From Sabellastarte sp. h YS-2021 (lineage: Eukaryota; Annelida; Polychaeta; Sabellida; Sabellidae): a stretch of DNA of 64,000 nt. The stretch is taken from NCBI GenBank assembly GCA_964017235.1, contig OZ024930.1:24866614-24930613 (forward strand), written 5' to 3'. The notes below the pieces were generated by a model. It was given only the letters and a program-made list of their open reading frames with translations. It was not told the origin of the DNA and ran no database searches. Positions within the stretch are counted from its first letter, which is position 1, and each line of letters starts with the position of its first letter. The position numbers and the translations under genes are program-made. Below are positions 8,574-63,600 of this stretch, in pieces.

Positions 8574-8948
8574 TTTGTATCCACCGAATAGCATCCGGTG
8601 GATACTATGGATTACGCAGGAGTATGCTGCCGTTGCTGCCGCCGCCACAGTGTGTAGAGATTTTCTTGTTACCCCTCTAGAGGCCAGGATATTATAGGTA
8701 GACTTCTCAAATTTGCAGGATATATTCATATCCATAAAATCTTGCTTGGGAATATTTTTGGCCTCATTTTGAAAAACAAGATGGCCTCCAAGGGCATTTT
8801 TCGACTTTCAGCAAGGAGTTTTGTTGGCCCTATAAGTATTATAAGTAGAGATCTCAGATTCACAGGATGAGTTCATCATTACAAAACCTTGACTGGAAAT
8901 ATTTTTGGCCTCATTTTGAAAAATAAGATGGCCGCTCAGTCATGAAAA

Positions 8949-9310
8949 GTGCTTATATCTCCCTTATTATTGGTCCTAGAAGTTTGCAATGTGAAACCAA
9001 CCTATAGGAAATCATGGGCTGCAAATCTTCTGATGTGGTCAGATTTGTCCTTGGGCCATTCCTTCAAGGTCAAAGAAGGATAGAGAAACCTAAAAGTGCT
9101 AATAACTCACTTATTATTGGTCCTAGAGGTTTGGGATGGTAAACCAACCTATCGGAAATCATGGGCTGCGAAACTTTTGATGTGGTCACATTTGATCTTT
9201 GGTCTCTCCATCAAGGTCAAATGAGGATAGAGAAACGTAAAAGTGCTAATATCTCGCTTATTATTTGGTCCTAGAGGTTTGGGATGGTAAACCAACCTAT
9301 AAACACAACA
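8949..9310 (+). repeat. 147-bp tandem repeat, about 2.5 units
   Basis: Units carry 'cttattattggtcctagagg', 'aaccaacctataggaaatca' and an inverted pair of TTGACCTTG/CAAGGTCAA. The same family forms arrays at 14157, 15490, 16470-18165, 21620 and 58289. Confidence 0.8.
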
Positions 9311-9984
9311 GAAGATTCCCATCCCATGATTTCCTATAGGTTGGCTCCACATGCGACACCTCTTGAACCAAGAATAAGGAAGATATAGGCACTTTTAAAG
9401 TCTGTTACATAAAAAAAATTGCCATGGCGGCCATCTTGTTTTTCAAAGTGAGGCCAAGAATAGCCCCAGGCAAACTTTTGTAATGATGAATATATCCTGC
9501 AAATTTGTGATCTCTACCTATAATATCCTTTGCTCTAGAGGGCCAACAAAACTCCTTGGTGAAGTGGAAATACACATGTGGCAGCCATGGTTCTTGTGTT
9601 ATATAAGTTATTGTGGCTATCTTGAGGGCAGTTTTAAGGTTCTGAGGCTTATTGGGGTGAATAGGGTGCCCGTGAGTCGCCCACGGGACGAAGATCGGAA
9701 CGTGAGCTTACTAGGGACATTTATCATGAGTCACCCCAACCACTTAGTTTGCTTGGTGTCTATTATTCTGTCTTGCCTGCTCCTTAGCCATGATGTTGTT
9801 GGGTTTTCTGTGCTTCAGTCTCCTCTTTTGGCTGAAAGTGGCTGACCAAAGTCAGTTCTTAGTCTCTCCCTGTGCCCTTCGTGTTCCTGCCCCGATCAGG
9901 GATTACTCCTGTAAAATTTTCTCAAATAAGTTTCCTGCACATGCCAGGGTCAAATATCTTTTATCTGGTGACATCGCCCTTGAC

Positions 9985-11092
9985 ATCCGTCCTTGGTCCT
10001 CTGCTGTTCTCCTTATACACCACTCCTTTGAGTAAGGTTATTGGAACGCATCCTGACATCAAATACCACTTTTATGCAGACGACACGCAGTTGTTTATTC
10101 ATATCTCTCACAAAAATGCAGCCCTGGCTTTTAACAAACTGAATTCTTGTCTTCTGGATGTTCAAAAATGGATGTCGTCAAGTATGCTCAAACTAAATCC
10201 TGACAAAACAGAGTTTATCATCTTTGGATCCCATGCACAACTCAAGAAATTAGATCCCTATCTCCCAGTTAAGATATTTGGTAATTTCATGCATCCTGCA
10301 GTTGTTGTTAAGAACCTTGGTGTCTGGTTTGATGCTAATTTTTCCTTTGCTAACCATGTCCGCAATATTTGTAAGACATGCTTCATTCAAATTCGTGATC
10401 TCAGGCGGGTTAGAAAGCACTTGACTGATGAGGCTGCTATCCTGGCAGCTAATGCCTTGGTGAGCAGTCGCCTTGATTACTGCAACTCTCTCTTCAGGAG
10501 TCTGTCCAGTCTCAATATGCGTAAACTACAGTGTATTCAAAATACACTTGCCAGGATTGTCACAAACTGTAACAAATACACACGGGCATCTCCTATTCTC
10601 AAACGACTCCATTGGCTCCCAGTTGAATCTTGCTGTATCTTCAAAACTGCCACTCTAGTTTATAAGTTTCTTCACAGTGGTCATCCCAGTTACTTTGGTC
10701 CTCTTCTGCCCACTCGTTGCGGAAGATATAGTACAAGATACAACCATCCAGATAAAAGGTTCCTTGAGGTTCCTCAATTCTGTCCATCTGTACATAAATC
10801 CAAAAATCACTTTGGCCACAGCTTTGCTTTTGATGCCCCCACAGTCTGGAATCATTTGCCTAATGAGGTACGTTCTGCCCCAACTCTCACCTGTTTCAGG
10901 AAAAGGTTATAATCATATCTCTTCCACAAGGCGTTCCCACCTTAGCTTACACTCTATCCGGCGTCTCCGTGGTACTGGACTTGGCAACGGCTATGGACAG
11001 ATGATTTCTTAAACTTGATTTTTGGTGTTGCGCCTTAGAGTCTGCCTAGCAGAGATTAAGCGCTATAAAAGTACAAAATAGAATAGAATAGA
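9985..11092 (+). pseudogene. LINE (CR1/L2/jockey-like) reverse transcriptase, 5'-truncated copy
   Basis: An open frame encodes the C-terminal part of a non-LTR retrotransposon RT. It starts inside SVLGPLLFSLYTTPLSKVI, followed by the catalytic YADDTQLF box and thumb motifs LNPDKTEFIIFG and NLGVWFDANFSFANHV. Then comes the typical C-terminal region LDYCNSLFRSL, LQCIQNTLARIV, LHWLPV, and FAFDAPTVWNHLPNEVRSAPTLTCFRKRL, ending near 10911. The 3' non-coding tail ends in a short (AGAAT)n run at about 11075-11092, as in CR1/L2-type LINEs. The upstream endonuclease and RT fingers are missing, so it is a dead 5' truncation. Clade assignment is by motif memory only. A related copy lies at 24001-27769. 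Confidence 0.85.
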
Positions 11093-11989
11093 ATGTTCTT
11101 TTTCAAAATGAGGCCTAAAATATTCCCAGGTAAGCTTTTGTAATGATGAATATATCCTGCAAATTTGAGAACCCTACCCACAATACCTTGGCCTCTAGAG
11201 GGGTAAAGGGAAAATCTCTACACACTACAGTGGCAGCGGCATACTCATGCGTAATCCATAGTATCCACCAGATGCTACCCAGTGGATACAAAAATTTAAC
11301 CTGATGAATCGTAGTTTGATCAAGTTTTATGAATGTATATAAATTAATGCGCTGTAGTTTCAGTGGCCTAGATAGAATTTATGAAAAAGCATTCACAGCG
11401 AAGACATCAATCAGGTGACATTTCAGAAAATTAAGGACTTTTTGTATCCAGCATATGACCCGGTCTTTCCTAGAACATAAACACTTTTTTCCTTTGGTCA
11501 AGCCTTACCCACATAAAAATTTATAGAAATATGCTCATTACTTTTTATGTCAGCTGACTTGTCAGTCAGCTGACATTATGTCATCACCCTGCGGCGTGGG
11601 CGTACGTGTCCGCGTCCGCGTGAACAACTTCTTCTCCAAAACTACAAGGCCTAGAGACGTGCTGTTTTTTTTAAAAGATACCTTATCTATCGAGGATGAA
11701 AAATTGTTCAAGGCATGCAAATCTGTCTGTTCGTCTGTTTGCTAGAGACATTACAAGGGGGGTACCCCCACCAAAAGTGTGAAAATTTCAACACTTAATC
11801 ACAATTTTCTCAGTGACTATTGCAGGGATTTCTCTCATATCTTGCATATATGTACTAGGCCACAGGTAGATTCTCTTGTGTGAGTATGAGACCTGGATCT
11901 GTCTTACTTTTTTTTTAATAAATTTTTTTAATAATTTTTAATGCATTAAAATTCATGAAATCATGCACAAAATCATTTATAACTTGAAA

Positions 11990-14156
11990 AGTGTTGCATT
12001 TAGAGCATTTTGTTAAAATATGTTATTCAGCTACTTTTTTCATAGCTACAATATGGTGAGTAAGTTGGGTGCCTGTCTCAATAGCTAAGTGAGTAATAGC
12101 TACTTTTGGGCTTTTCAGTAACTTCCATCATGAGTAAAATCACTTGTAACTTAAAAACTATTGCATTTAGAGAAATTCGTATAAATATGTTATTCAGCTA
12201 CTTTTGGGTCAGCTATAACATAGTAAAATTTTAGACCTGTAGCTCATGGCATAGCTGAGTAATAGCTACTTTTAGGTTATCACTGTTGAGTAAATCGCTT
12301 ATAACTTCAAAACTATTGCATTTAGAGAATTTCGTATAAATATGTTATTCAGCTACTTTTGGGTCAGCTATAACATAGTAAAATTTCAGACCTGTAGCTC
12401 ATGGCATAGCTGAGTAATAGCTACTTTTAGGTTATCACTGTTGAGTAAATCGCTTATAACTTCAAAACTATTGCATTTAGAGAATTTCGTATAAATATGT
12501 TATTCAGCTACTTTTGGGTCAGCTATAACATAGTAAAATTTCAGACCTGTAGCTCATGGCATAGCTGAGTAATACCTACTTTTAGGTTATCACTGTTGAG
12601 TAAATCGCTTATAACTTGGAAACTATTCCATTTACAGTATTTTGTTTCAATATGTTATTCACCTATTTTGGGATCAGCTATATCATAGTGAAGTTTCAGA
12701 TCTGTGGCTCATTGCATAGCTGAGTAATAGCTACTTTGAAGTTCTCACTATTGAGTAAATCTCTTGTAACTTAAAACCTATTGCATTTAGAGAATTTCGT
12801 ATAAATATGTTATTCAGCTACTTTTGGGCCAGCTATAACATAGTGAAATTTCAGATCTGTAGGTCATGGCATAGCTGAGTAATAGCTACTTTAAAGTTCT
12901 CACTATTGAGTAAATCAGTTGTAATTGGAAAACTATTGCATTTAGAGAATTTCGTATAAATATGTTATTCAGCTACTTTTGGGTCAGCTATAACATAGTA
13001 AAATTTCAGACCTGTAGCTCATGGCATAGCTGAGTAATAGCTACTTTTAGGTCATCACTATTGAGTAAATCAGTTGTAACTTCAAAACTATTGCATTTAC
13101 AGTATTTTGCTTAAATATGTTGTTCACCTACTTTTGGGTCAGCTATAACATAGTGAAATTTCAGACCTGTAGCTCATTGCATAGCTGAATAATAACTACT
13201 TTGAGGTTCTCACTATTGAGTAAATCAGTTGTAATTGCAAAACTATTGCATTTAGAGAATTTAGTATAAATATGTTATTCAGCTGCTTTTGGGTCAGCTA
13301 TAACATAGTAAAATTTCAGACCTGTAGCTCATGGCATAGCTGAGTAATAGCTACTTTTAGGTTATCACTGTTGAGTAAATCACTTATAACTTGGAAACTA
13401 TTGCATTTACAGTATTTTGTTGCAATATGTTATTCACCTATTTTGGGGTCAGCTATAACATAGTGAAGTTCCAGACCTGTGGCTCATTGCATAGCTGAGT
13501 AATAGCTACTTTGAAGTTCTCACTGTTGAGTAAATCAGTTGTAATTGGAAAACTATTGCCTTTACAGAAATTTGTGCAAATATGTTATTCAGCTACTTTT
13601 GGGTCAGCTATAACATAGTGAAATTACAGACCTGTAGCTCATGGCACAACTGAGCAATAGCTATTCTCAGGCACTGACTGTTGAGTAAATCGGCTATAAC
13701 TTGAAAAATATTGCATTTGGAGTATTTTGTTAAAATATATTGTTCACCTACTTTTGGGTCAGCTATAACATAGTGAAATTACAGACCTATAGCTCATGGC
13801 ATAGCGGAGCAATAGCTATTTTCAGGTTCTCACTATTGAGTAAATCAGTTGTAACTTGAAAACTATTGCATTTACAGTATTTTGCTTAAATATGTTGTTC
13901 ACCTACTTTTAGGTCAGCTATAACAGAGCAAAAATTCAGACATGTAGCTCATTGCATAGCTGAGTAATAGTTACTTTGAGGTTCTCACTCTTGAGTAAAT
14001 CAGTTGTAACTTGAAAACTATTACATTTAGAGTATTTTGTTAAATATGTTATTCACAGACGTTTTGGTCAGCTATAACATAGTGAAATTGCAGACCTCTA
14101 TGTCATGGCATAGCTGAGCAATAGCTTCTTTAAGGTTCTCACTGTTGAGTAAATCA
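11990..14156 (+). repeat. 155-bp satellite array in P1, about 14 monomers
   Basis: The period was measured directly: the motif 'cgcttataacttcaaaac' recurs at 12296 and 12451. A monomer contains 'agctacttttgggtcagcta', 'taacatagtaaaatttcaga', 'catggcatagctgagtaata' and 'actattgcattta'. Divergence is higher at the array edges than in the middle. Confidence 0.92.
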
Positions 14157-14985
14157 TTGTATCCAACCTGTAGGAAATCATGGGCTGGGAATCTGTTAAT
14201 ATGGTCCGATTTGACCTTGGAACCCTCCTTCAAGGTCAAATGAGGATAGCCAAACATAAAAGTGCTTATAACTCGCTTATTATTGGTCCTAGAGGTTTGG
14301 AATGAAAACCAACCTATAGAAAATCATGAGCTGGGAATTTTTTGGTGTGGTCGGATTTCACCTTGGACCCCTCCTTCAAGGTCAAATGAGGATAGCCAAA
14401 CTTAAAAGTGCTTATAACTCGCTTATTATTGGTCCTAGAGGTTTGGAATGGAAAACCAACCTATAGAAAATCATGGGCTGGGAATCTTTTGGTGTGGTCG
14501 GATTTCACCTTAGACCCCTCCTTCCAGGTCAAACGAAGATAGCCAAACTTAAAAGTGCTTATAACTCGCGTATTATTGGTCTTGGAGGTTTGGGATGGTA
14601 AACCAACATATAGGAAATTATGGGCTGGGATTCTTTTGGTGTGGTCAGATTTGACCTGGGACCCCCCCTTCAAGGTCAATTGAGGATAGCCAAACTTACA
14701 ATTGCTTATAACTCGCTTATTATTGGTTCTACAGGTTTGGGATGGTAAACAAGCTACAGGAAATCATGGGCTGGGAATTTTTTTGTGTGGTCGGATTTGA
14801 CCTTAGACCCCTCCGTCAAGGTCAAACAAGGATAGCCAAACTTAAAAAGTGCCTATGACTCACTTATTATTGGTCTGAGAGGTTTGGGATGGTAAACCAT
14901 CCTAAATTCTTTGGCTGGGAATCTTTTGGTATGGTCAGATTTGACCTTTGGATCCCTTCTTCATGGTCGAACGAGGATATTGCAT
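14157..14985 (+). repeat. 147-bp repeat array in P1, 5-6 units
   Basis: Successive 'aaatcatgggctgggaatct'-type landmarks lie about 146-148 bases apart. Each unit holds an inverted pair TTTGACCTTG ... CAAGGTCAAA separated by about 11 bases. The junction with the satellite reads tgtatccaacctgtagg, which reveals a deletion relative to copy P2. Confidence 0.88.
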
Positions 14986-15489
14986 TTATAGTATTTCTTT
15001 AAATATTTTTAACCTACTTTTTACACTTAAACAATTACCTTGTTACTTTAATTCATAATACCATTTGCAGGGCACAACTTTTTTGTCCTTTTCTTCTGTC
15101 AGCTTCGGAATATCTTTCAAACATGCTGTTCAGTTACCATTTACTGTATTTCTGTACAGCCCTTTCCCTGATAATTATGCTTTCCTCTCATTATCACCAT
15201 CACAAATCAAAAACATTCAGTCAGCTGACACAGTGCCCGTTCACGGGCACTCTCCTCTTGTTTTTTAAATGCTATCACTAGCCTTGAAGTTTATTTTTAT
15301 TGGGCAAGACAATAAAAATTGACCACTAATTAATAGAAGTCCACTGTTAAAAATGCCTAAATAAACTGAAAATGTATTTTTTATTAGTTTAAACTTATCA
15401 TAAAGTCGTCCCCCAGAATTTTTAGCCCCTCCCCCACATTTTGTGTAGTGGTGGGGGATCGCCCCCACTTTTTGAAATTCCTAGAATCA

Positions 15490-15925
15490 ACACTGTTATT
15501 ATTGGTGACAGAGATTTGGGATGGTAAACCATCGCATAGGAAATCATTGGCTCGGAATCTTTTGGTATGGTCAGATTTGACCTTTGGACCCCTCCTTCAA
15601 GGTCAAATGAGGACAGCCAAGCTTAAAAGTGCTTATAACTCATTTATAATTGGTCCTAGAGGTTTGGAATGGTAAACCATAGGAAATCATGGGCTGGGAA
15701 TGTATTTGTGTGGTTAGATTTGACCTTGGACCCCTTCTTCAAGGTCGAACGAGGATATTGCATTTGTAGTATTTCTTTAAATATGTTTTAACCTATTAAC
15801 TTTTTTATCCTTTTCTTCTGTCAGCTTCGGAATTTCTTTCGAACTTGCTGTTCAGTTACCATTTACTGTATTTCTGTACAGCCCTTTTCCTGATACAGTG
15901 CCCGTGAATGGGCACTCTCCTCTTG
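15490..15925 (+). mobile_element. Isolated 3' end of the same hairpin-element family
   Basis: Two units of the 147-bp repeat are followed by the family tail and the terminal hairpin agtgcccg/..gggcact, ending at ctcctcttg (15925). It matches the tail of P2 (21930-22476) rather than that of P1. An internal deletion removed the part after 'aacctatt', together with the subterminal arm. It is probably a remnant of another insertion lying 230 bp beyond P1. Confidence 0.8.
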
Positions 15926-16469
15926 TTGAGTAATATCAAATAAAGATACCCAGGAAACAATAAATCACATAGTTTTGGAAAAAAACTGGTGGCGGTCTGT
16001 GCTCTATGAATGCTTTCCAGCAGAATAAAAATACAATGAACAGTTGTATCAAATAATCCTAAAAATATGTTACGTTAGATAATATAAGAATTTTGGTGCA
16101 ATAAATATTCCTCTTTGTATTAATACTGTGGCAAATAATTTTCTGCTCTTTAGGACAGTTCTCTTTAGTTATGTTAAATGTATGCAATATGTACAAGTGA
16201 ATGAAAATACCAAAACTTTTACTTTTCTGATAAAGTGTGCACACACATTGGTAACAGTAGCCTCAGCAATACATGTATACACCAAGATAACTGGATTATC
16301 AACTGATAGAAACCACAAGATATAAATTTCACTCTCTTGACAGTTGTAAAACATATAAAACAGTGGGGGGTAATGCTGGGAGAGGTGGGGTGGGGGAAGC
16401 AGTTAAAGGAACCAGTTGCAGATTTTCCTTAGACTGTATAAAAATTTAATGTACTATTAAATTTTCCAG
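15926..16469. other. Intron 1 sequence, nothing recognised
   Basis: AT-rich; a G-rich tract lies at 16367-16400. No gene or repeat was identified. Confidence 0.35.
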
Positions 16470-18165
16470 TTTATGAAACCAGCCCATGTGAAATCATGGA
16501 TGAAGTCTTTTGATATAGTCAGATTAGATGTTTGGTTCCTAGATGAAGGTCAAAAAGGCATGCCCATAATCAAAGTGCCTATATAGAGATTATTATTGCT
16601 CCTATCATAGGTGCTTGCTCACCAGATTTCTTTATGCTTCTAGTGGATACAGATATGGATTGGTTCCTTATGCGCTCGGTCTAGTTTTTTTTCGGGATAT
16701 AGGCAAGCTTCTCTAGTAATTCTGTGGAAAAATTTCTGTATGCAGGGTTGACGTCCACTCTCACCTCTCTTTTAAGAAGTCTCAGTGTGTAGTACAGACA
16801 AATTTAGAATCAGTTTGTGCCATAAAACAACAATTCCCATGATATTCTAATCTATTATAACTGCTGTGACTGTCAATCCACCTGTTGTCTTCTCTTAGAC
16901 CTAAGCTTCTAGATCTTGGAACCGGTGGATAATTTGGTTTAGCGTTTGCTAAACTGCTGAGAGATTTTCAACGTTAACGCTCTCAGAGGTAAACTGCACT
17001 AGCTGGCTTCACCAAATTTGCAGGATATCTTCATTGGGAGGTAAGCTTCACTGGGACTGAAATTAGCCTCATTCCTAAAAACGAGATGGCCGCTGTGGGC
17101 ATTTCTTTAAAATTTATCTACCTTTTTCTACTGGCTGGTTCTCATAAGTAGAAGATTGAATCTCTTCATAGTTTATGTGTATAACAGAAATACATGTCCT
17201 CTACAATCTTGCAGACATTTGACCTTGAAGCTCCTCATTCAAGGTCGTCCACAGAATGCCATAATACCCCATGTAGTGGACTTTAAAAGTGCATATGTCT
17301 CCCTTATTATTGGTCCTAGAAGTTTGCAGTGTGAAACCTACTTATAGGAAATCATGGGCTGGGATCTTCATGTGGTCAGATTTGACCTTGGGCCCCTAAT
17401 TCTAGGTCAAAGTCAAACAAGGATAGGCAAAGTTAAAAGTGCTTATAACTTGCATATTATTGGTCCTAGAAGTTTGCAATGTGAAACCAACTTCAAAGTT
17501 ATTGGAAATCATGGGCTGGGAATCTTTTGATGTGGTCAGATTTGACCTTGGCCCCCCCTCGTTCAAGGTCAGATGAGGATAGCCAAACTTTAAAATGCTT
17601 ATAACTCGCTTATTATTGGTCCTAGAGGTTTTCAATGTGAAACCAATTTACAGGAAATCATGGGCTGGGAATCTTTGATGTGGTCAGATTTGACCTTGGC
17701 CCCCCTCGTTCAAGGTCAGATGAGGATAGCCAAACTTTAAAATGCTTATAACTCGCTTATTATTGGTCCTAGAGGTTTTCAATGTGAAACCAATTTACAG
17801 GAAATCATGGGCTGGGAATCTTCTGATATGTTCAGATTTGACCTTGGGCCCCTCCTTCAAGGTCAAGTGAGGACAGCCAAACCTAAAAATGCTTATAAAT
17901 CGCTTATTATTGGTCCAAGAGGTTTTCAGTGTGAAGCCAACCTACAGGATATCATGGGCTTGGAATCTTCTGATATGTTCAGATTTGACCTTGGGCCCCT
18001 CCTTCAAGGTCATATGAGGACAGCCAAACTTAAAAATGCTTATAAATCGGTCCTAGATGTTTTCTGATGGTAAACCAACATATAGGAAATCATGCGCTGG
18101 GAATCTTCTGGCGTGGTCGGATTTGACCTTGGGCCCCTCCTTCAAGGTCAAATGATGATTCACTG
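16470..18165 (+). repeat. Decayed and intact 147-bp repeats with a fold-back-type 5' fragment
   Basis: Degenerate units begin at about 16470. At 16920-17140 there is a fragment resembling the left end of the 8574 element: hairpins gtttagc/gctaaac and ctgagag/ctctcag, then 'caccaaatttgcaggatatc' and 'gagatggccgct'. From about 17200 to 18165 six to seven better-conserved 147-bp units follow, each with TTGACCTTG and CAAGGTCA arms. Two adjacent units (about 17530-17790) are almost identical, indicating a recent unit duplication. The association again pairs the fold-back family with the 147-bp repeat. Confidence 0.75.
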
Positions 18166-19456: not shown

Positions 19457-20009
19457 GTAAGTTTCACCACCTAAAATTATCCAGGACATCTTCAAGATAG
19501 ATTTGCAATCACTGAATTTTGAAATATAACCATGCCTCTTGAGTAGTTTCAATTATATTTTTATGTTTAAAGTGACAATCAGACTTTTTATGTCAGCTGA
19601 CTTGTCAGTCAGCTGACATTATGTCATCACTCTGCGGCGTGGTCGTACGTGTCCGCGTCCGCGTGAACAACTTCTTCTCCAAAACTACAAGGCCTAGAGA
19701 CATGCTGTTTTTTTTAAAAGATACCTTATCTATCGAGGATGAAAAATTGTTCAAGGCATGCAAATCTGTCTGTTCGTCTGTTTGCTAGAGACATTACAAG
19801 GGGGGTACCCCCACCAAAAGTGTGAAAATTTCAACTTTTTATCACAATTTTCTCAGTGACTATTGCAGGGATTTCTCTCATATCTTGCATATATGTACTA
19901 GGCCAGAGGTAGATTCTCTTGTGTGAGTATGAGACCTGGATCTGTCTTACTTTTTTTTAAATAAATTTTTTTAATAATTTTTAATGCATTAAAATTCATG
20001 AAATCATGC

Positions 20010-21436
20010 ACTAAATCACTTATAACTTCAAAAGTGTTGCATTTACAGCATTTTGTGAAAATATGTTGTTCAGCTACTTTTTTCATAGCTACAATATGGT
20101 AAGTTGGGTGTCTGTCTCAATAGCTAAGTGAGTAATAGCTACTTTTGGGCTTTTCAGTAACTTCCATTATGAGTAAAATCACTTGTAACTTAAAAACTAT
20201 TGCATTTAGAGAATTTCGTATAAATATGTTATTCAGCTACTTTTGGGTCAGCTATAACATAGTAAAATTTCAGACCTGTAGCTCATGGCATAGCTGAGTA
20301 GTAGCTACTTTTAGGTTATCACTGTTGAGTAAATCACTTATAACTTGAAAAGTGTTGCATTTAGAGCATTTTGTTAAAATATGTTATTCAGCTACTTTTT
20401 TCATAGCTACAATATCGTGAGTAAGTTGGGTGTCTGTCTCAATAGCTAAGTGAGTAATAGCTACTTTTGGGCTTTTCAGTAACTTCCATCATGAGTAAAA
20501 TCTCTTGTAACTTAAAAACTATTGCATTTAGAGAATTTCGTATAAATATGTTATTCAGCTACTTTTGGGCCAGCTATAACATAGTAAAATTTCAGACCTG
20601 TAGCTCATGGCATAGCTGAGTAGTAGCTACTTTTAGGTTATCACTGTTGAGTAAATCGCTTATAACTTGAAAACTATTGCATTTAGAGTATTTTGTTTCA
20701 ATATGTTATTCACCTATTTTGGGGTCAGCTATAACATAGTGACGTTTCAGACCTGTGGCTCATTTCATAGCTGAGTAATAGCTACTTTGAAGTTCTCACT
20801 GTTGAGTAAATCAGTTATAATTGGAAAACTATTGCATTTACAGAAATTTGTGCAAATATGTTATTCAGCTACTTTTGGGTCAGCTATAACATAGTGAAAT
20901 TATAGACCTATAGCTCATGGCACAACTGAGCAATAGCTATTCTCAGGTACTGACTGTTGAGTAAATCAGCTATAACTTGAAAAATATTGTATTTGGAGTA
21001 TTTTGTTAAAATATATTGTTCACCTACTTTTGGGTCAGCTATAACATAGTGAAATTACAGACCTATAGCTCATGGCATAGTGGAGCAATAGCTATTTTCA
21101 GGTTCTCACTATTGAGTAAATCAGTTGTAGCTTGAAAACTATTGCATTTACAGTAGTTTACTTAAATATGTTGTTCACCTACTTTTGGGTTAGCTATAAC
21201 ATAGTAAAATTTCAGACATGTAGCTCATTGCATAGCTGAGTAATAGTTCCTTTGAGGTTCTCACTGTTGAGTAAATCAGTTGTAACTTGAAAACTATTAC
21301 ATTTAGAGTAATTTGTTAAATATGTTATTCACAGAATTTTTGGTCAGCTATAACATAGTGAAATTGCAGACCTCTATGTCATGGCATAGCTGAGCAATAG
21401 CTACTTTCAGGTTCTCACTGTTGAGTAAATCATTGT
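20010..21436 (+). repeat. 155-bp satellite array in P2, about 9 monomers
   Basis: Same monomer as in P1. A unit resembling the array's entry sequence ('gcatttagagcattttgtta', 'cagctacttttttcatagct') recurs at about 20340-20480, so the leading monomers have been duplicated here. Confidence 0.9.
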
Positions 21437-22200
21437 ATCCACTGGATAGCCGCAGTGTGTAGAGAGAGATTTCACCATTACTGCTCTGATGAAAAAAAAT
21501 ATTATAGCTAGCTTTCTTAAGTTTGCAGTATATATTAATAACCATAAAATGTTGTCTGGGAATATTTTTGGCCTCATTTTGAGAAACAAGATGGCCGCCA
21601 CAGGTGTTTTTTGTCAGTCATGAAAAGTGCTTATATCTCCCTTATTATTGATCCTAGAGGTTTGGGATGATAAACCAACCTGTAGGAAATCATGGGGTGG
21701 GAATCTTTTGGTGTGGTCAGATTTGACCTTCAATGACCCCTCCTTCAAGGTCAAACAAGGATAGCCAAACTTAAAAGTGCTTATAACTCGCTTATTATTG
21801 GTCCCAGAGGTTTGGGATGGTAAAAAGACAGGAAATCATGGGCTGTGAATCTGTTGATATGGTCCGATTTGACCTTGGAACCCTCCTTCAAGGTCAAATG
21901 AGGATAGCGAAAATTGAAAGTGCCTACAACTCGCTTATTATTGGTGACAGAGATTTGGGATGGTAAACCATCCCATAGGAAATCATTGGCTCGGAATCTT
22001 TTGGTATGGTCAGATTTGACCTTTGGACCCCTCCTTCAAGGTCAAATGAGGACAGCCAAGCTTAAAAGTGCTTATAACTCATTTATAATTGGTCCTAGAG
22101 GTTTGGAATGGTAAACCATAGGAAATCATGGGCTGGGAATGTATTTGTGTGGTTAGATTTGACCTTGGACCCCTTCTTCAAGGTCGAACGAGGATATTGC
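21437..22200 (+). repeat. Fold-back terminus fragment plus 147-bp repeats in P2
   Basis: 21437-21620 reads tgtatccactggatag..cagtgtgtagaga..., then 'ggcctcattttgagaaacaa' and 'gatggccgcca', clearly related to the 8574 element's left arm. From 21620 there are four 147-bp units. The segment tgtatcca^...^aacctgtagg is what P1 and P3 lack. Confidence 0.8.
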
Positions 22201-22476
22201 ATTTGTAGTATTTCTTTAAATATGTTTTAACCTATTTTTTACACTTAAACAATTACCTTGTTATTTTCCTTCATAATACCATTTACAGGGCACAACTTTT
22301 TTATCCTTTTCTTCTGTCAGCTTCGGAATTTCTTTCGAACTTGCTGTTCAGTTACCATTTACTGTATTTCTGTACAGCCCTTTTCCTGATAATTATTCTG
22401 TCCTCTAATCACCTTCACAAATCAAAAACACTCAGTCAGCTGACACAGTGCCCGTTCACGGGCACTCTCCTCTTGT

Positions 22477-24000: not shown

Positions 24001-24355
24001 AATTGAACTGACAAACTTTGGCAGATTCTCGGCTGTAGAAGGTTGAAACCCAATGTAGTTGCTGGTTTTGTTCTAAAATGGTTCCAATCCTACCTTCAGG
24101 ATCGTTTTCAGTCCGTCAAGATTGGTTCTGCTGTTTCAAATTTCTTCAAATTGAAGTTCGGTTCAGTCCCCCAAGGTTCTGTCTTAGGTCCTCTTCTGTT
24201 TTCCCTCTACACAACACCCCTTAGTCAAGTCATCAAAAAATATACTGGAGTAAATACCACTTTTATGCTGATGACACTCCGCTGTTGATTCACCTATCAT
24301 CTGAAAGATAATCTCAAGTCTTTTGACCATCTGAAATCCTGTTTGAAGGATATTT
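24001..24355 (+). pseudogene. LINE reverse transcriptase, upstream half of a split copy
   Basis: Translation gives VAGFVLKWFQSYLQDRFQSV, KLKFGSVPQGSVLGPLLFSL and YTTPLSQVI, then a frameshift just before the position of the catalytic YADD box (FMLMTLRC in the shifted frame is TTFMLMTL for YHFYADDT). It ends at HLKSCLKD where another element has inserted. The continuation starts at about 26833. Same LINE family as 9985-11092. Confidence 0.82.
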
Positions 24356-24659
24356 GTATCCCCGGACGAAAGTCGGGGATACTTAGGATTCAGTACGGTC
24401 ACGCCGCCGCCGCCGCAGAGATTTCCTTTTGGACGCGATAACTTAAAAAATATTTTAGTTAGAACTTTCAAATTTGGTATGTGGGTTGGGCAATGCCACG
24501 AACGCTATTGTTTTGTGACCTTGACCTTCAATCTCAGGGTCACTGGTGGCCTCTTAAAGGTCAGATTTTGGCCATTTTTTCACTTTTTGGCCCAGTTCTC
24601 CTATACAGAAAGTTAGATCATCCTATGGCTGGTATATATAATACATATATATGTCCTCT

Positions 24660-25095
24660 GTAAGCATGCAGAAATTTGACCTTGAAGCTCTTCATTGAAG
24701 GTCATCCACTGACCGCCAAAGTACCTGACCGAGGGTCATTTTTGGCCTTTTTGGAGATATTTTCACACTTAATGCTGACTATATTGCATGGAAACTATTG
24801 AAAATGGCTTTGGAGGTTGAGTACATGATGGACTTCTACCATCCAGGCTTACTGGTTACAGATCTTCATTTAAGGTCATCCACTGACCGCCAAAGTACCT
24901 GACCAAGGGTCATTTTTGGCAAATTTGGAGATATTTTCACACTTAATGCTGACTACATTGCATGGAAACCATTGAAAATGGCTTTGGAGGTTGAGTACAT
25001 GATGGAGTACCAGCATCCAGGCTTACCGGTTACAGATCTTCATTTAAGGTCATCCACTGACCGCCAAAGTACCTGACCGAGGGTCATTTTTGGCC
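24660..25095 (+). repeat. 174-bp tandem repeat, about 2.5 units
   Basis: The motif 'gtcatccactgaccgccaaa' recurs at 24701, 24875 and 25049, exactly 174 bases apart. Units include TGACCTTGA-like and 'gagatattttcacacttaat' motifs. Confidence 0.88.
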
Positions 25096-26700: not shown

Positions 26701-26832
26701 AGCTTTTGGGAGTAATCTGGTACTGTGGACAATCCTGACCTGGTGCTCCAGGAAACAGGCTCAAGACCGACATATTCACGCCTTAACTATGTCCCGTCTG
26801 GGGATACACTGCGTCGAGACGCAATCTCTAGT

Positions 26833-53041: not shown

Positions 53042-53464
53042 TTTTTATGTCAGCTGACTTGTCAGTCAGCTGACATTATGTCGTCACTCTGTGGCGTGGG
53101 CGTACGCGTCCGCGTGAACAACTTCTCCTCCAAAACTACAAGGCCTAGAGACGTGCTGTTTTTGTTAAAAGATACCTTATCTATCGAGGATGAAAAATTG
53201 TTCAAGGCATGCAAATCTGTCTGTTCGTCTGTTTGCTAGAGACATTACAAGGGGGGTACCCCCACCAAAAGTGTGAAAATTTCAACACTTAATCACAATT
53301 TTCTCAGTGACTATTGCAGGGATTTCTCTCATATCTTGCATATATGTACTAGGCCAGAGGTAGATTCTCTTGTGTGAGTATGAGACCTGGATCTGTCTTA
53401 CTTTTTTTTTAATAAATTTTTTTAATAATTTTTAATGCATTAAAATTCATGAAATCATGCACAA

Positions 53465-56400
53465 AATCATTTATAACTTGAAAAGTGTTGCATTTAGAGC
53501 ATTTTGTTAAAATATGTTATTCAGCTACTTTTTTCATAGCTACAATATGGTGAGTAAGTTGGGTGTCTGTCTCAATAGCTAAGTGAGTAATAGCTACTTT
53601 TGGGCTTTTCAGTAACTTCCATCATGAGTAAAATCACTTGTAACTTAAAAACTATTGCATTTAGAGAATTTCGTATAAATATGTTATTCAGCTACTTTTG
53701 GGTCAGCTATAACATAGTAAAATTTTAGACCTGTAGCTCATGGCATAGCTGAGTAATAGCTACTTTTAGGTTATCACTGTTGAGTAAATCGCTTATAACT
53801 TCAAAACTATTGCATTTAGAGAATTTCGTATAAATATGTTATTCAGCTACTTTTGGGTCAGCTATAACATAGTAAAATTTCAGACCTGTAGCTCATGGCA
53901 TAGCTGAGTAATAGCTACTTTTAGGTTATCACTGTTGAGTAAATCGCTTATAACTTGGAAACTATTGCATTTACAGTATTTTGTTTCAATATGTTATTCA
54001 CCTATTTTGGGATCAGCTATAACATAGTGAAGTTTCAGATCTGTGGCTCATTGCATAGCTGAGTAATAGCTACTTTGAAGTTCTCACTATTGAGTAAATC
54101 ACTTGTAACTTAAAACCTATTGCATTTAGAGAATTTTGTATAAATATGTTATTCAGCTACTTTTGGGCCAGCTATAACATAGTGAAATTTCAGATCTGTA
54201 GGTCATGGCATAGCTGAGTAATAGCTACTTTAAAGTTCTCACTATTGAGTAAATCAGTTGTAATTGGAAAACTATTGCATTTAGAGTATTTCGTATAAAT
54301 ATGTTATTCAGCTACTTTTGGGTCAGCTATAACATAGTAAAATTTCAGACCTGTAGCTCATGGCATAGCTGAGTAATAGCTACTTTTAGGTCATCACTAT
54401 TGAGTAAATCAGTTGTAACTTGAAAACTATTGCATTTACAGTATTTTGCTTAAATATGTTGTTCACCTACTTTTGGGTCAGCTATAACATAGTAAAATTT
54501 CAGACCTGTAGCTCATTGCATAGCTGAGTAATAGCTACTTTGAGGTTCTCACTATTGAGTAAATCAGTTGTAATTGCAAAACTATTGCATTTAGAGAATT
54601 TCGTATAAATATGTTATTCAGCTACTTTTGGGCCAGCTATAACATAGTGAAATTTCAGATCTGTAGGTCATGGCACAGCTGAGTAATAGCTACTTTGAAG
54701 TTCTCACTATTGAGTAAATTAGTTGTAATTGGAAAACTATTGCATTTACAGAATTTTGTATAAATATGTTATTCAGCTACTTGTGGGTCAGCTATAACAT
54801 AGTAAAATTTCAGACCTGTAGCTCATGGCATAGCTGAGTAATAGCTACTTTTAGGTCATCACTATTGAGTAAATCAGTTGTAACTTCAAAACTATTGCAT
54901 TTACAGTATTTTGCTTAAATATGTTGTTCACCTACTTTTGGGTCAGCTATAACATAGTAAAACTTCAGACCTGTAGCTCATTGCATAGCTGAGTAATAAC
55001 TACTTTGAGGTTCTCACTATTGAGTAAATCAGTTGTAATTGCAAAACTATTGCATTTACAGAATTTAGTATAATATGTTATTCAGCTACTTTTGGGTCAG
55101 CTATAACATAGTAAAATCTCAGACCTGTAGCTCATGGCATAGCTGAGTAATAGCTACTTTTAGGTCATCACTATTGAGTAAATCAGTTGTAACTTGAAAA
55201 CTATTGCATGTACAGTATTTTGCTTAAATATGTTGTTCACCTACTTTTGGGTCAGCTATAACATAGTAAAATTTCAGACCTGTAGCTCATGGCATAGCTG
55301 AGTAATAGCTACTTTGAGGTTATCACTGTTGAGTAACTCGCTTATAACTTGGAAATTATTGCATTTAGAGTATTTTGTTTCAATATGTTATTCACCTATT
55401 TTGGGGTCAGCTATAACATAGTGAAGTTCCAGACCTGTGACTCATTGCATAGCTGAGTAATAGCTACTTTGAAGTTCTCAATGTTGAGCAAATCACTTAT
55501 AATTTGAAAACTATTGCATTTAGAGAATTTAGTATAAATATGTTATTCAGCTACTTTTGGGTCAGCTATAACATAGTAAAATTTCAGACCTCTATGTCAT
55601 GGCATAGCTGAGTAATAGCTACTTTTAGGTTATCACTGTTGAGTAAATCACTTATAACTTGGAAACTATTGCATTTAGAGTATTTTGTTGCAATATGTTA
55701 TTCACCTATTTTGGGGTCAGCTATAACATAGTGAAGTTCCAGACCTGTGGCTCATTGCATAGCTGAGTAATAGCTACTTTGAAGTTCTCACTATTGAGTA
55801 AATCAGTTGTAATTGGAAAACTATTGCATTTAGAGAATTTCGTATAAATATGTTATTCAGCTACTTTTGGGTCAGCTATAACATAGTAAAATTTCAGACC
55901 TGTAGCTCATGGCATAGCTGAGTAATAGCTACTTTTAGGTCATCACTATTGAGTAAATCAGTTGTAACTTGAAAACTATTGCATTTACAGTATTTTGCTT
56001 AAATATGTTGTTCACCTACTTTTGGGTCAGCTATAACATAGTAAAATTTCAGACCTGTAGCTCATTGCATAGCTGAGTAATAGCTACTTTGAGGTTCTCA
56101 CTATTGAGTAAATCAGTTGTAATTGCAAAACTATTGCATTTAGAGAATTTCGTATAAATATGTTATTCAGCTACTTTTGGGCCAGCTATAACATAGTGAA
56201 ATTTCAGATCTGTAGGTCATGGCACAGCTGAGTAATAGCTACTTTGAAGTTCTCACTATTGAGTAAATTAGTTGTAATTGGAAAACTATTGCATTTACAG
56301 AATTTTGTATAAATATGTTATTCAGCTACTTTTGGGTCAGCTATAACATAGTAAAATTTCAGACCTGTAGCTCATGGCATAGCTGAGTAATAGCTACTTT

Positions 56401-58288
56401 TAGGTCATCACTATTGAGTAAATCAGTTGTAACTTCAAAACTATTGCATTTACAGTATTTTGCTTAAATATGTTGTTCACCTACTTTTGGGTCAGCTATA
56501 ACATAGTAAAACTTCAGACCTGTAGCTCATTGCATAGCTGAGTAATAACTACTTTGAGGTTCTCACTATTGAGTAAATCAGTTGTAATTGCAAAACTATT
56601 GCATTTACAGAATTTAGTATAATATGTTATTCAGCTACTTTTGGGTCAGCTATAACATAGTAAAATCTCAGACCTGTAGCTCATGGCATAGCTGAGTAAT
56701 AGCTACTTTTAGGTCATCACTATTGAGTAAATCAGTTGTAACTTGAAAACTATTGCATGTACAGTATTTTGCTTAAATATGTTGTTCACCTACTTTTGGG
56801 TCAGCTATAACATAGTAAAACTTCAGACCTGTAGCTCATGGCATAGCTGAGTAATAACTACTTTGAGGTTCTCACTATTGAGTAAATCAGTTGTAATTGC
56901 AAAACTATTGCATTTACAGAATTTAGTATAATATGTTATTCAGCTACTTTTGGGTCAGCTATAACATAGTAAAATCTCAGACCTGTAGCTCATGGCATAG
57001 CTGAGTAATAGCTACTTTTAGGTCATCACTATTGAGTAAATCAGTTGTAACTTGAAAACTATTGCATGTACAGTATTTTGCTTAAATATGTTGTTCACCT
57101 ACTTTTGGGTCAGCTATAACATAGTAAAATTTCAGACCTGTAGCTCATGGCATAGCTGAGTAATAGCTACTTTGAGGTTATCACTGTTGAGTAACTCGCT
57201 TATAACTTGGAAATTATTGCATTTAGAGTATTTTGTTTCAATATGTTATTCACCTATTTTGGGGTCAGCTATAACATAGTGAAGTTCCAGACCTGTGACT
57301 CATTGCATAGCTGAGTAATAGCTACTTTGAAGTTCTCAATGTTGAGCAAATCACTTATAATTTGAAAACTATTGCATTTAGAGAATTTAGTATAAATATG
57401 TTATTCAGCTACTTTTGGGTCAGCTATAACATAGTAAAATTTCAGACCTCTATGTCATGGCATAGCTGAGTAATAGCTACTTTTAGGTTATCACTGTTGA
57501 GTAAATCACTTATAACTTGGAAACTATTGCATTTAGAGTATTTTGTTGCAATATGTTATTCACCTATTTTGGGGTCAGCTATAACATAGTGAAGTTCCAG
57601 ACCTGTGGCTCATTGCATAGCTGAGTAATAGCTACTTTGAAGTTCTCACTGTTGAGTAAATCAGTTGTAATTGGAATACTATTGCCTTTACAGAAATTTG
57701 TGCAAATATGTTATTCAGCTACTTTTGGGTCAGCTATAACATAGTGAAATTACAGACCTGTAGCTCATGGCACAACTGAGCAATAGCTATTCTCAGGCAC
57801 TGACTGTTGAGTAAATTGGCTATAACTTGAAAAATATTGCATTTGGAGCATTTTGTTAAAATATATTGTTCACCTACTTTTGGGTTAGCTATAACATAGT
57901 GAAATTACAGACCTATAGCTCATGGCATAGCGGAGCAATAGCTATTTTCAGGTTCTCATACTATTGAGTAAATCAGTTGTAACTTTGAAAACTATTGCAT
58001 TTACAGTATTTTGCTTAAATATGTTGTTCACCTACTTTTAGGTCAGCTATAACAGAGCAAAAATTCAGACATGTAGCTCATTGCATAGCTGAGCAATAGT
58101 TACTTTGAGGTTCTCACTCTTGAGTAAATCAGTAGTAACTTGAAAACTATTACATTTAGAGTATTTTGTTAAATATGTTATTCACAGACGTTTTGGTCAG
58201 CTATAACATAGTGAAATTGCAGACCTCTATGTCATGGCATAGCTGAGCAATAGTTTCTTTCAGGTTCTCACTGTTGAGTAAATCATTG
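53465..58288 (+). repeat. 155-bp satellite array in P3 with 10/12-mer higher-order repeat
   Basis: Landmarks recur exactly 1549 bases apart (54561 and 56110; 54961 and 56510). Further downstream the offset becomes 1858 (55271 and 57129; 55591 and 57449). This means a block of ten monomers was duplicated and the second copy later gained two monomers (309 bases). Confidence 0.92.
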
Positions 58289-59110
58289 TATCCAACCTGT
58301 AGGAAATCATGGGCTGGGAATCTGTTAATATGGTCCGATTTGACCTTGGAACCCTCCTTCAAGGTCAAATGAGGATAGCCAAACATAAAAGTGCTTATAA
58401 CTCGCTTATTATTGGTCCTAGAGGTTTGGAATGAAAACCAACCTATAGAAAATCATGAGCTGGGAATTTTTTGGTGTGGTCAGATTTCACCTTGGACCCC
58501 TCCTTCAAGGTCAAATGAGGATAGCCAAACTTAAAAGTGCTTATAACTCGCTTATTATTGGTCCTAGAGGTTTGGAATGGAAAACCAACCTATAGAAAAT
58601 CATGGGCTGGGAATCTTTTGGTGTGGTCAGATTTCACCTTAGACCCCTCCTTCCAGGTCAAATGAAGACAGCCAAACTTAAAGTGCTTATAACTCGCGTA
58701 TTATTGGTCTTGGAGGTTTGGGATGGTAAACCAACATATAGGAAATCATGGGCTGGGATTCTTTTGGTGTGGTCAGATTTGACCTGGGACCCCTCCTTCA
58801 AGGTCAATTGAGGATAGCCAAACTTACAATTGCTTAGAACTCGCTTATTATTGGTCCTACAGGTTTGGGATGGTAAATAAGCTACAGGAAATCATGGGCT
58901 GGGAATTTTTTTGTGTGGTCGGATTTGACCTTGGACCCTCCGTCAAGGTCAAACAAGGATAGCCAAACTTAAAAAGTGCCTATGACTCACTTATTATTGG
59001 TCCGAGAGGTTTGGGATGGTAAACCATCCTAAATTCTTTGGCTGGGAATCTTTTGGTATGGTCAGATTTGACCTTTGGACCCCTTCTTCATGGTCGAACG
59101 AGGATATTGC
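58289..59110 (+). repeat. 147-bp repeat array in P3, 5-6 units
   Basis: Differs from the P1 array by scattered substitutions and single-base indels only, unit for unit. Confidence 0.9.
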
Positions 59111-59388
59111 ATTTATAGTATTTCTTTAAATATTTTTAACCTACTTTTTACACTTAAACAATTACCTTGTTACTTTATTTCATAATACCATTTGCAGGGC
59201 ACAACTTTTTTGTCCTTTTTTTCTGTCAGCTTCGAAATATCTTTCGAACATGCTGTTCAGTTACCATTTACTGTATTTCTGTACAGCCCTTTCCCTGATA
59301 ATTATGCTTTCCTCTCATTATCACCATCACAAATCAAAAACATTCAGTCAGCTGACACAGTGCCCGTTCACGGGCACTCTCCTCTTGT

Positions 59389-59910
59389 TTGGGGGGGGGG
59401 CTGGGGTTATAGTCGTCCGAGCAGAGGCATCAAGGGGGGCATAAAGCTTGTAGGTGTTCCACAGCCTAAACCCATGCATGGATAATAAGGCCTTTGTAAT
59501 AGGATAACCCCATTGGCCATTAAACGTGACATGGCAGCCATTTTTTTTTTTTACTAGGCCAAAATTACTATTAGGCTAGCTATCATATATCTTCTGTGCC
59601 AAGTTTAATGAAGCTAGCTGCAATATTTCTAGATTTAGAGCATCTTTATGATTTTCAAAAAATCGGCTATGGTGGCCATTTTGTTTTTCAAAATAAGGCC
59701 AAAATTTTGCACAGACATGTTTTGATAGCCATAAACATTCCCTGCAAATTTGGTGAAGATATCTGCATAAATAAATGAGATATTAAAGTTTATGCATGGA
59801 CGCACGCTCGCATGTACAAAATGTGTTTTATAATCTCCCGACCATGGCCTTCAGCCGCTGGCGGGAGATAGAGAAAACAATTGCTCCCACAGTGGGAGTG
59901 AAAGTCATGG
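59389..59910 (-). mobile_element. Decayed hairpin-type element in reverse orientation
   Basis: Read on the minus strand it starts with inverted motifs ctcccac/gtgggag and tctcccg/cgggaga (about 59836-59900). A 'gcgagcgtgcgtcc' CG-rich stretch follows, then 'accaaatttgcagggaatgt', 'ggccttattttgaaaaacaa' and 'aatggccacca', the same order as in the 8574 element. A G10 tract marks the junction with P3. Borders are uncertain. Confidence 0.45.
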
Positions 59911-60686
59911 CTACTTCAATGTTTTATTGTAGTCAAAATAACAATAAACTTGTATAAACTTAGAAACTTTTTGTTTTGACAAAAGTGCAATCTGGCAAAA
60001 TTTGAAATTCTGCAGACAGAATTTAACAGCCAAGTCTTTCTGCAAAAAGTATTTCTGTAAATGTTTTTCAAGGTGCAATAGTATGGGTTTTATCAAGTTA
60101 AAAAATCTTTCTGTCATAATGAATTAACTTTTAACTTAGTATGCACTGTGTAATGCTTTGCACTCTTGCTGAAGTGTTATACATACCTCTCAGATTCAAT
60201 CAGAAAGAAAGACAGAACCAACTTTTTGTGATTCAGCAAACCATTTGATACCATTTTGTTGTTTTTGTATGATCAAAGGATAATTGTATTACAATTAGAG
60301 TACTTTTAAACAAATCCTTGCTTCTTTCATTAATTTTGTTCCCTTTTAAGAAATTGATTTCTGCTATATTTCTTCAGTTGTAAAGTATATTTGCTATCTC
60401 ATCAAATTTTAATCAAATAAAAACCACTCTAATTAAATATAATTAAAGTACAAGTTTGCAATATCCAGGTTTTACTGTTCACTTTAGGTATCACCGTATC
60501 AGTGTCTGTTTTATGTGTTGTATTTCCCAATTTCCAACTAGCTAAAGGCATAACTTTTACAGCCAAGATTTTTGGTGGACTAAAAAGATTGCTGCAGTGC
60601 AAGGTTCATGATAAATGTGTGTTCATATAGCCCTACTTGTTCAAAGTTACCAGACCAGCCCTGGATTACAATGTATAGCTGCAGTA
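59911..60686. other. AT-rich spacer, nothing recognised
   Basis: No coding, RNA or repeat signature was identified between the decayed element and P4. Confidence 0.4.
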
Positions 60687-63600
60687 TTTTTATGTCAGCT
60701 GACTTGTCAGTCAGCTGGCATTATGTCGTCACTCTGCGGCGTGGGCGTACGCGTATGCGTACGCGTACGCGTGAACAACTTCTCCTCCAAAACTACAAGG
60801 CCTAGAGACGTGCTGTTTTTTTTAAAAGATACCTTATCTATCGAGGATGAAAAATTGTTCAAGGCATGCAAATCTGTCTGTTCGTCTGTTTGCTAGAGAC
60901 ATTACAAGGGGGGTACCCCCACCAAAAGTGTGAAAATTTCAACTTTTTATCACAATTTTCTCAGTGACTATTGCAGGGATTTCTCTCATATCTTGCATAT
61001 ATGTACTAGGCCAGAGGTAGATTCTCTTGTGTGAGTATGAGACCTGGATCTCTCTTACTTTTTTTTTAATAAATTTTTTTAATAATTTTTAATGCATTAA
61101 CATTCATGAAATCATGCACAAAATCATTTATAACTTGAAAACTGTTGCATCTAGAGCATTTTGTTAAAATATGTTATTCAGCTACTTTTTTCATAGCTAC
61201 AATATGGTGAGTAAGTTGGGTGTCTGTCTCAATAGCTAAGTGAGTAATAGCTACTTTTGGGCTTTTCAGTAACTTCCATCATGAGTAGAATCACTTGTAA
61301 CTTAAAAACTATTGCATTTAGAGAATTTCGTATAAATATGTTATTCAGCTACTTTTGGGTCAGCTATAACATAGTAAAATTTTAGACCTGTAGCTCATGG
61401 CATAGCTGAGTAATAGCTACTTTTAGGTTATCACTGTTGAGTAAATTGCTTATAACTTCAAAACTATTGCATTTAGAAAATTTTGTATAAATATGTTATT
61501 CAGCTACTTTTGGGTCTGCTATAACATAGTAAAATTTCAGACCTGTAGCTCATGGCATAGCTGAGTAATAGCTACTTTTAGGTTATCACTGTTGAGTAAA
61601 TCGCTTATAACTTGGAAACTATTGCATTTAGAGTATTTTGTTTCAATATGTTATTCACCTATTTTGGGATCAGCTATAACATAGTGAAGTTTCAGATCTG
61701 TGGCTCATTGCATAGCTGAGTAATAGCTACTTTGAAGTTCTCACTATTGAGTAAATCAGTTGTAATTGGAAAACTATTGCATTTAGAGAATTTCGTATAA
61801 ATATGTTATTCAGCTACTTTTGGGTCAGCTATAACATAGTAAAATTTCAGACCTGTAGCTCATGGCATAGCTGAGTAATAGCTACTTTTAGGTCATCACT
61901 ATTGAGTAAATCAGTTGTAACTTGAAAACTATTGCATTTACAGTATTTTGCTTAAATATGTTGTTCACCTACTTTTGGGTCAGCTATAACATAGTAAAAT
62001 TTCAGACCTGTAGCTCATGGCATAGCTGAGTAATAGCTACTTTTAGGTCATCACTATTGAGTAAATCAGTTGTAACTTGAAAACTATTGCATTTACAGTA
62101 TTTTGCTTTAATATGTTGTTCACCTACTTTTGGGTCAGCTATAACATAGTGAAATTTCATACCTGTAGCTCATTGCATAGCTGAGTAATAACTACTTTGA
62201 GGTTCTCACTATTGAGTAAATCAGTTGTAATTGGAAAATTATTGCATTTAGAGAATTTAGTATAAATATGTTATTCAGCTACTTTTGGGTCAACTATAAC
62301 ATAGTAAAATTTCAGACCTGTAGCTCATGGCATAGCTGAGTAATAGCTACTTTTAGGTCATCATTATTGAGTAAATCAGTTGTAACTTGAAAACTATTGC
62401 ATTTACAGTATTTTGCTTAAATATGTTGTTCACCTACTTTTGGGTCAGCTATAACATAGTAAAATTTCAGACCTGTAGCTCATGGCATAGCTGAGTAATA
62501 GCTACTTTTAGGTCATCACTATTGAGTAAATCAGTTGTAACTTGAAAACTATTGCATTTACAGTATTTTGCTTAAATATGTTGTTCACCTACTTTTGGGT
62601 CAGCTATAACATAGTAAAATTTCAGACGTGTAGCTCATGGCATAGCTGAGTAATAGCTACTTTTAGGTTATCACTGTTGAGTAAATCAGTTGTAGTTGGA
62701 AAACTATTGCATTTAGAGTATTTAGTATAAATATGTTATTCAGCTACTTTTGGGTCAACTATAACATAGTAAAATTTCAGACCTGTAGCTCATGGCATAG
62801 CTGAGTAATAGCTACTTTTAGGTCATCATTATTGAGTAAATCAGTTGTAACTTGAAAACTATTGCATTTACAGTATTTTGCTTAAATATGTTGTTCACCT
62901 ACTTTTGGGTCAGCTATAACATAGTAAAATTTCAGACCTGTAGCTCATGGCATAGCTGAGTAATAGCTACTTTTAGGTCATCACTATTGAGTAAATCAGT
63001 TGTAACTTGAAAACTATTGCATTTACAGTATTTTGCTTAAATATGTTGTTCACCTACTTTTGGGTCAGCTATAACATAGTAAAATTTCAGACGTGTAGCT
63101 CATGGCATAGCTGAGTAATAGCTACTTTTAGGTCATCATTATTGAGTAAATCAGTTGTAACTTGAAAACTATTGCATTTACAGTATTTTGCTTAAATATG
63201 TTGTTCACCTACTTTTGGGTCAGCTATAACATAGTAAAATTTCAGACCTGTAGCTCATGGCATAGCTGAGTAATAGCTACTTTTAGGTCATCACTATTGA
63301 GTAAATCAGTTGTAACTTGAAAACTATTGCATTTACAGTATTTTGCTTAAATATGTTGTTCACCTACTTTTGGGTCAGCTATAACATAGTAAAATTTCAG
63401 ACGTGTAGCTCATGGCATAGCTGAGTAATAGCTACTTTTAGGTTATCACTGTTGAGTAAATCAGTTGTAGTTGGAAAACTATTGCATTTAGAGTATTTAG
63501 TATAAATATGTTATTCAGCTACTTTTGGGTCAACTATAACATAGTAAAATTTCAGACCTGTAGCTCATGGCATAGCTGAGTAATAGCTACTTTTAGATCA

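Follow-up and report, generated by a model that had tools for sequence, protein, structure and literature searches.

Satellite-carrying repeat families in a sabellid annelid as probable non-autonomous Helentrons, and a likely nested origin of a double array

A 64,000-nucleotide stretch of the genome of Sabellastarte sp. h YS-2021 (assembly GCA_964017235.1, contig OZ024930.1, positions 24,866,614 to 24,930,613 of the forward strand; hereafter the window) carries four families of repeats with hairpin ends and internal satellite arrays, named here A, P, B, and C (first window positions 8574, 11542, 24356, and 37996, respectively). Because of their anatomy and insertion, all four are very probably Helentron-associated interspersed elements (HINEs), i.e., non-autonomous Helentrons that contain no genes and are copied by Helentron proteins via rolling-circle transposition. 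In addition, P has an A element nested in its array, and this makes it likely that HINEs with several satellites originate by nesting: one element would insert at a TT in the array of another and lose its 3′ end, the composite would be amplified, and satellites would pass between families, a single event of this kind probably accounting for the 11,894 junctions counted in this genome. Genome-wide counts come from searches of the 1.786-Gb assembly (647 contigs), and tandem arrays were called by Tandem Repeats Finder (TRF).

The four families follow a common plan, in which one or more Ts are succeeded by a hairpin, a CG-rich run, and tandem units of 143-174 bp. The 5′ hairpin has perfect arms of 10 bp in A (8577-8605), 13 bp in P (11547-11576, 19590-19619, and 53047-53076, with a 9-bp remnant at 60696-60717 in the fourth copy), 9 bp in B (24356-24382), and 9 bp in C (37999-38019). 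Perfect hairpins with arms of at least 9 bp and an arm GC content of at least 0.4 number 18 in the window versus 0-3 per dinucleotide shuffle (12 shuffles), the 18 including repeated copies of the same family and not being independent cases. A 5′ subterminal inverted repeat (subTIR) and a complementary inverted repeat (IR) near the 5′ end are present in A, P, B, and C. The tandem units are 147 bp in A, 155 and then 143-147 bp in P, 174 and then 145/293 bp in B, and 169 bp in C. An earlier sequence-only reading of the window had already described the hairpins, the CG-rich run after them, and the arrays, and all three are borne out, apart from a 285-bp unit in B that proves to be 293 bp; the "aaatttgg/gcaggatat" segment that it ascribed to three families is found in A, B, and C but is lacking from P.

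The same reading let the elements end with the inverted hairpin arm. P, B, and C do have a short 3′ arm, but beyond it come a further hairpin and then CT(A/T)G, followed by T. The second hairpin measures 9 bp in P, 6 bp in B, and 6 bp in C; by chance, a hairpin of at least 6 bp occurs in 950 of 20,000 random 32-mers of the window. The C element (37996..41271, plus strand) consists of the hairpin, a GTCC run, the 169-bp array, the 3′ arm (41185-41194), the 3′ hairpin, and TTTCTAG followed by TT; its terminus at 41271, about 80 bp beyond the 3′ arm, was fixed from whole head-to-tail C copies (see below).

Family A requires more than its window copy. The copy at 8574 is made of two facing A 5′ halves with no 3′ end, and an inverted subTIR followed by a palindrome is missing from it. 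The left half (8575..9301, plus strand) comprises TT, the 10-bp hairpin, a GCC run, two related left-flank segments, and 2.4 units of 147 bp; the inverted half (9302..11294, minus strand) adjoins it at 9301/9302 and is split at ~9600-11093 by a long interspersed nuclear element (LINE). We take the inverted arm to have arisen by fusion of two A copies at this locus, because the junction 9301/9302 has a single genome match, itself, and no close opposite-strand pair was seen by eye among the 100 A matches listed. What had been regarded as the ending of the A family is, hence, a whole inverted second 5′ half present at one locus, and canonical A copies end otherwise. Thirty such copies were sampled on contig C1 besides that at 8574; they have 27 distinct left flanks, one of them common to four copies, and lean to young copies, since all 30 match the 5′ pattern without mismatch. 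Within the 1.5 kb fetched per copy, 12 of the 30 show the 3′ arm and the other 18 extend beyond that stretch; of the 12, eleven end in GGTCT(A/T)G and then TT, and the last breaks off at the edge of its locus. The 3′ hairpin of these 11 ends is perfect in seven and has one mismatch in two. The candidate interpretation of A as a foldback element was dropped in view of the unique inverted junction and the HINE-like ends of the canonical copies; the 8574 copy is a warning that a single copy can mislead, being foldback-like in a family that is not. The A 5′ pattern has 2,393 + 2,346 genome matches, a count that is too high because the hairpins match both strands (24 of 33, in 31 sources), so that the number of 5′ ends is ~2,400-2,800. 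At one locus (L012), an A copy stands immediately after the 3′ end of another A (GGTCTAGTT directly followed by GTATCC).

Insertion signatures agree across the families. In A, TT precedes GTATCC in 28 of 30 copies and follows all 11 of the 3′ ends, with no duplication. In P, TT is found at nine of nine right flanks (window positions 15260, 15925, 22475, and 59387; loci L063-L067), and in C, ATT stands before seven of the eight copies fetched and ATA before the eighth. Empty sites concern B only, not A, P, or C. The B element of the window (24354..26831, plus strand; terminus TCTCTAG followed by T) interrupts the reverse-transcriptase frame of a LINE, and the protein alignment is best (219) when its flanks are joined as GATAT^TCATG. 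A related B copy resides inside a Helentron (L039), whose counterparts L037 and L038 hold the empty site GTTTATTTTGG with nothing duplicated; the cut there falls between A and T or somewhere in the Ts. Both B empty sites lie in T-runs and show no duplication. Differing insertion signatures, which the sequence-only reading had named as the finding that would speak against its proposal of one Helentron-like mechanism, were not seen, the B empty sites lacking a duplication and A, P, and C having TT/ATT flanks; the proposal is further upheld by a coding Helentron of the same plan in the genome (see below).

These data also bear on the assignment to other classes. The families might be miniature inverted-repeat transposable elements (MITEs) or foldback elements mobilized by cut-and-paste transposases, their hairpin ends being due to convergence, as the long inverted arms of the 8574 copy would suggest and as was formerly supposed, to judge by a paper title, for Donax elements of similar look, which were called MITEs. 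This is highly improbable given that neither the empty sites of B nor the flanks of 11 A copies show a duplication, that the ends are asymmetric, and that the long inverted arm occurs at one locus only. A target duplication of fixed length, which marks cut-and-paste elements with terminal inverted repeats, including MITEs, is absent from the B empty sites and the A flanks. Nor do the elements have the form of canonical Helitrons (5′ TC, 3′ CTRR, insertion between A and T): their 5′ ends are Ts, and the 3′ termini are CTAG in A, B, and C and CTTG in P and L037; at one B site, insertion may have been at A^T.

The genome contains 24 Helitron_like_N matches. One of the loci, L037, holds a 2,237-amino-acid frame with the Rep domain (Helitron_like_N, 90.1 bits), the PIF1 helicase (96.6 bits), and the C-terminal endonuclease by which Helentrons are recognized, the latter (Exo_endo_phos, 21.4 bits) being below its cut-off of 24.5. 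Both ends of the L037 type were set by comparison of copies: the 5′ end bears the hairpin TAGGCGGGTTG/CAACCCGCCTA after TTTT, a GTCC run, and a 164-bp x 3.1 array, and the 3′ end reads CAACCCGCC...CTCTTG and then T in L037, L038, and L057. In L037 and L038, the 5′ hairpin is present twice, ~600 and 770 bp apart; the length of L037 is therefore 11.7 kb from the inner hairpin or ~12.3 kb from the outer one. The 5′ hairpin pattern of this type has 2,203 + 2,054 = 4,257 genome matches (controls 0), with no strand doubling in five sources. Three of the five loci inspected (L069, L072, and L074) hold elements of 757-1,041 bp with both L037-type ends; L070 is a doublet with its 3′ end out of view, and no 3′ end was seen in L073. 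In another Helentron type, L040 (H40), the endonuclease match is above the cut-off (29.3 vs 27.4); its ends were sought, and none was clear. An autonomous Helentron sharing its termini with short elements is thus present for the L037 type; none with the termini of A, P, B, or C was found among the 10 of 24 Rep loci examined.

A Helentron Rep-helicase-endonuclease would recognize the 3′ hairpin together with the subterminal arms, nick beside the terminal T, and copy or peel off one strand, which would then be inserted into TT with no duplication of the target; the satellite arrays are carried inside the elements. Several observations weigh against the assignment of A, P, B, and C to this system. 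The terminal bases of the L037-type Helentron differ from theirs, and no autonomous element with A, P, B, or C ends was found in the 10 Rep loci, six of which were viewed over a 4-kb stretch only. Two of the 11 A 3′ ends (L029 and L030) are without a clear hairpin. The evidence from B consists of the window copy and the L039 copy, not of a genome-wide set, and the LINE-based empty site is a weak locator, since neighboring cuts score 218-214 versus 219. Finally, rolling-circle replication is what we infer and not what was observed. One of the 10 loci, L062, appears to combine a 3′ end of A type with sequence of C type near its Rep-like match.

Family C has 3,521 + 3,645 genome matches, with no doubling in 13 sources. 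On contig C1, whole C copies lie head to tail, starting at 17,088,378, 17,091,018, 17,095,692, 17,100,365, and 17,105,038; of the four junctions between them, the three that were read each have the sequence TTTCTAG-TT-ATGTCC. Such neighbors could be the products of ordinary tandem duplication or unequal crossing-over and not rolling-circle multimers, a serious competitor to which we give a somewhat less than even chance. It would fit the near-equal steps between C copies (4,674, 4,673, and 4,673 bp). It would also fit the L037 type, where the 5′ end is doubled in both L037 and L038, and where the next match is within 2 kb, always on the same strand, for 23 of the 100 matches listed, so that the 23 doublets may descend from a few inherited ones. 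However, the C junctions lie exactly at the element ends with one TT between them in all three cases read, and unequal crossing-over alone would require a prior end-to-end insertion. The view that each of these 23 doublets is a multimer in its own right was dropped, since L037 and L038 also carry the doubled 5′ end; the L037-type doublets are probably inherited.

The composite structure of P is evident from its second array: the 147-bp array of A follows the 155-bp array. Copy 1 (11542..15260, plus strand) comprises the hairpin, the 155-bp array, a nested A remnant (14159..14979, plus strand), the 3′ arm, the 3′ hairpin, and CTCTTG followed by TT. In copy 2 (19585..22475, plus strand), the second part (21435..22196, plus strand) aligns to A from the first base of A, i.e., at the edge TT/GTATCC, with the A hairpin deleted. 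Copy 3 (53042..59387, plus strand; terminus CTCTTG followed by TT) has 30 units of 155 bp and a nested A remnant at 58288..59106 (plus strand); in copies 1 and 3, the left flank of A is gone. The cut lies within the 155-bp unit of P at a TT. With up to three mismatches allowed, the junction form of copy 2 has 3,829 + 3,803 = 7,632 genome matches and the form without the A left flank 2,127 + 2,135 = 4,262 (controls 0 for both), which are numbers of junctions, not of elements, some of the junctions lying in short duplicates arranged in tandem, with steps of 720 and 1,393 bp. The 3′ end of A is absent from three window P copies and from all five loci that reach the 3′ end of P; a sixth, L068, stops short.

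These features suggest one A insertion into P, followed by amplification, as the simplest account: an A element would have landed at a TT inside the 155-bp array and shed its 3′ end before being copied together with the rest of P. An unlikely alternative is that the arrays of A and P recombined; this would accord with the absence of the A 3′ end in the window copies and at the five loci, and recombination figures among the proposals for double arrays in oyster (recombination, a captured junction, or filler insertion; PMC7492417). The left junction is exactly the A terminus, with A left-flank sequence following it in copy 2, and array-to-array recombination would not preserve this terminal edge.

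The presence of A within P and the likeness of A and B also qualify the claim that the families are unrelated in sequence. The 5′ modules of A and B align with a score of 219 versus a maximum of 140 in 100 shuffles, by which measure the A module is homologous to that of B. Among local scores for 12 segments, 10 of 66 same-strand pairs exceed all 100 shuffles (A_LF-B_LF, A_LF-E_LF, A147-C169, C169-D, P155-C_LF, B145-P_LF, C169-E_LF, A_LF-C_LF, P_LF-C_LF, and E_LF-D) and the other 56 do not; one of 66 opposite-strand pairs does (C169-E_LF). A 12-column motif over six tandem monomers scores 92.2 versus 81.8 ± 2.5 in 100 shuffles (maximum 88.4), and a higher score, 97.3, is obtained with the C monomer reversed, the element-strand reading being second among 32 orientations. 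At width 20, the score is 117.9 versus a shuffle maximum of 115.5, with one of six half-flipped sets higher (119.5). A common module across the tandem units is, at most, suggested by these alignments.

The window contains further repeats and putative coding pieces. A 5′-truncated P copy lies at 15485..15925 (plus strand; terminus CTCTTG followed by TT), an old A fragment at 16474..16684 (plus strand) retains the 3′ terminus GGTCTAG followed by TT, and P copy 4 (60687..64000, plus strand) extends past the window edge. On the minus strand, 59400-59875 represents a fifth family, E, with a ATCTCCCG/CGGGAGAT hairpin and a left-flank segment akin to that of A (266, shuffle maximum 151); no 3′ end was found for it. 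An older array akin to the 169-bp unit of C (270, shuffle maximum 173) occupies 52300-53020 and adjoins P copy 3, and array F (36942-37896, 146 bp x 6.6) has no recognized HINE ends. The repeat at 34633-36080, with inverted ends (TTACGCCCAAT... / ...ATTGGGCGTAA), 29-bp units, and TA-rich flanks, looks like a different, cut-and-paste element. The motif TGACCTTGA / TCAAGGTCA occurs 30 times in the window versus a shuffle mean of 0.84 (maximum 4, 50 shuffles), mostly within 147-bp units (3364-3440, 9066-9213, 14212-14942, 15578-18144, 21724-22160, 24516-25046, 36152-37790, and 58341-59069); it corresponds to a putative nuclear-receptor (ERR/SF-1-like) half-site. Exon-like pieces at 19360-30050, which we take to resemble an SLC41/MgtE-type magnesium transporter, would place several of the elements within introns, and open frames at 31315-32844, 42440-43012, and 49653-51110 presumably belong to Tigger/pogo-type and hAT-type transposases. 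An Rfam gathering scan gave 0 matches.

A literature search over titles and abstract openings, with few subscription journals, retrieved no description of the A, P, B, or C families or of nested HINEs. The sequence-only reading had considered the link to Helentrons unmade for three of the families, but satellite-carrying HINEs of bivalves have already been published (PMC7492417); the general connection between satellites and HINEs is known, and it is the probable nested-A origin of the second array of P that is new here. SubTIRs, a 3′ stem-loop, and TT targets define the Helentrons and HINEs that Thomas et al. (2014, PMC4067079) describe from mite, Culex, and Drosophila, DINE-1 among them. The elements described here share these features, including a variable number of Ts at the target and Rep, helicase, and endonuclease in autonomous copies, but differ in their CT(A/T)G 3′ termini and in the distance from the subTIR to the 3′ end, ~80-90 bp in C versus 38-60 bp there. 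Closer in layout are the 11 satellite-carrying Cg_HINE elements of the Pacific oyster, two of them with double arrays (Vojvoda Zeljko et al. 2020, PMC7492417). By layout, the sequences not having been compared, they have in common with our families the 5′ subTIR with a complementary IR, a GTCC-type microsatellite, arrays of 140-180 bp units, a 3′ subTIR with a palindrome, and T-rich targets without duplication. The bivalve Pearl elements, cited from the same source and likewise not compared in sequence, are similar in having short arrays of ~160-bp repeats in a HINE frame. According to the oyster study, its elements could not be related to autonomous Helentrons, and the origin of double arrays was left open, with several origins discussed; two gaps thus concern the part of autonomous Helentrons in moving such elements and the way in which two arrays arise. 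In contrast to the oyster, one coding family here has matching short elements; the L037 type, with ends that are found again on these elements, supplies a case for the first gap. For the second, the composite P family, in which a nested insertion would explain one double array and the junction shows one element inside another, suggests how double-array HINEs may originate.

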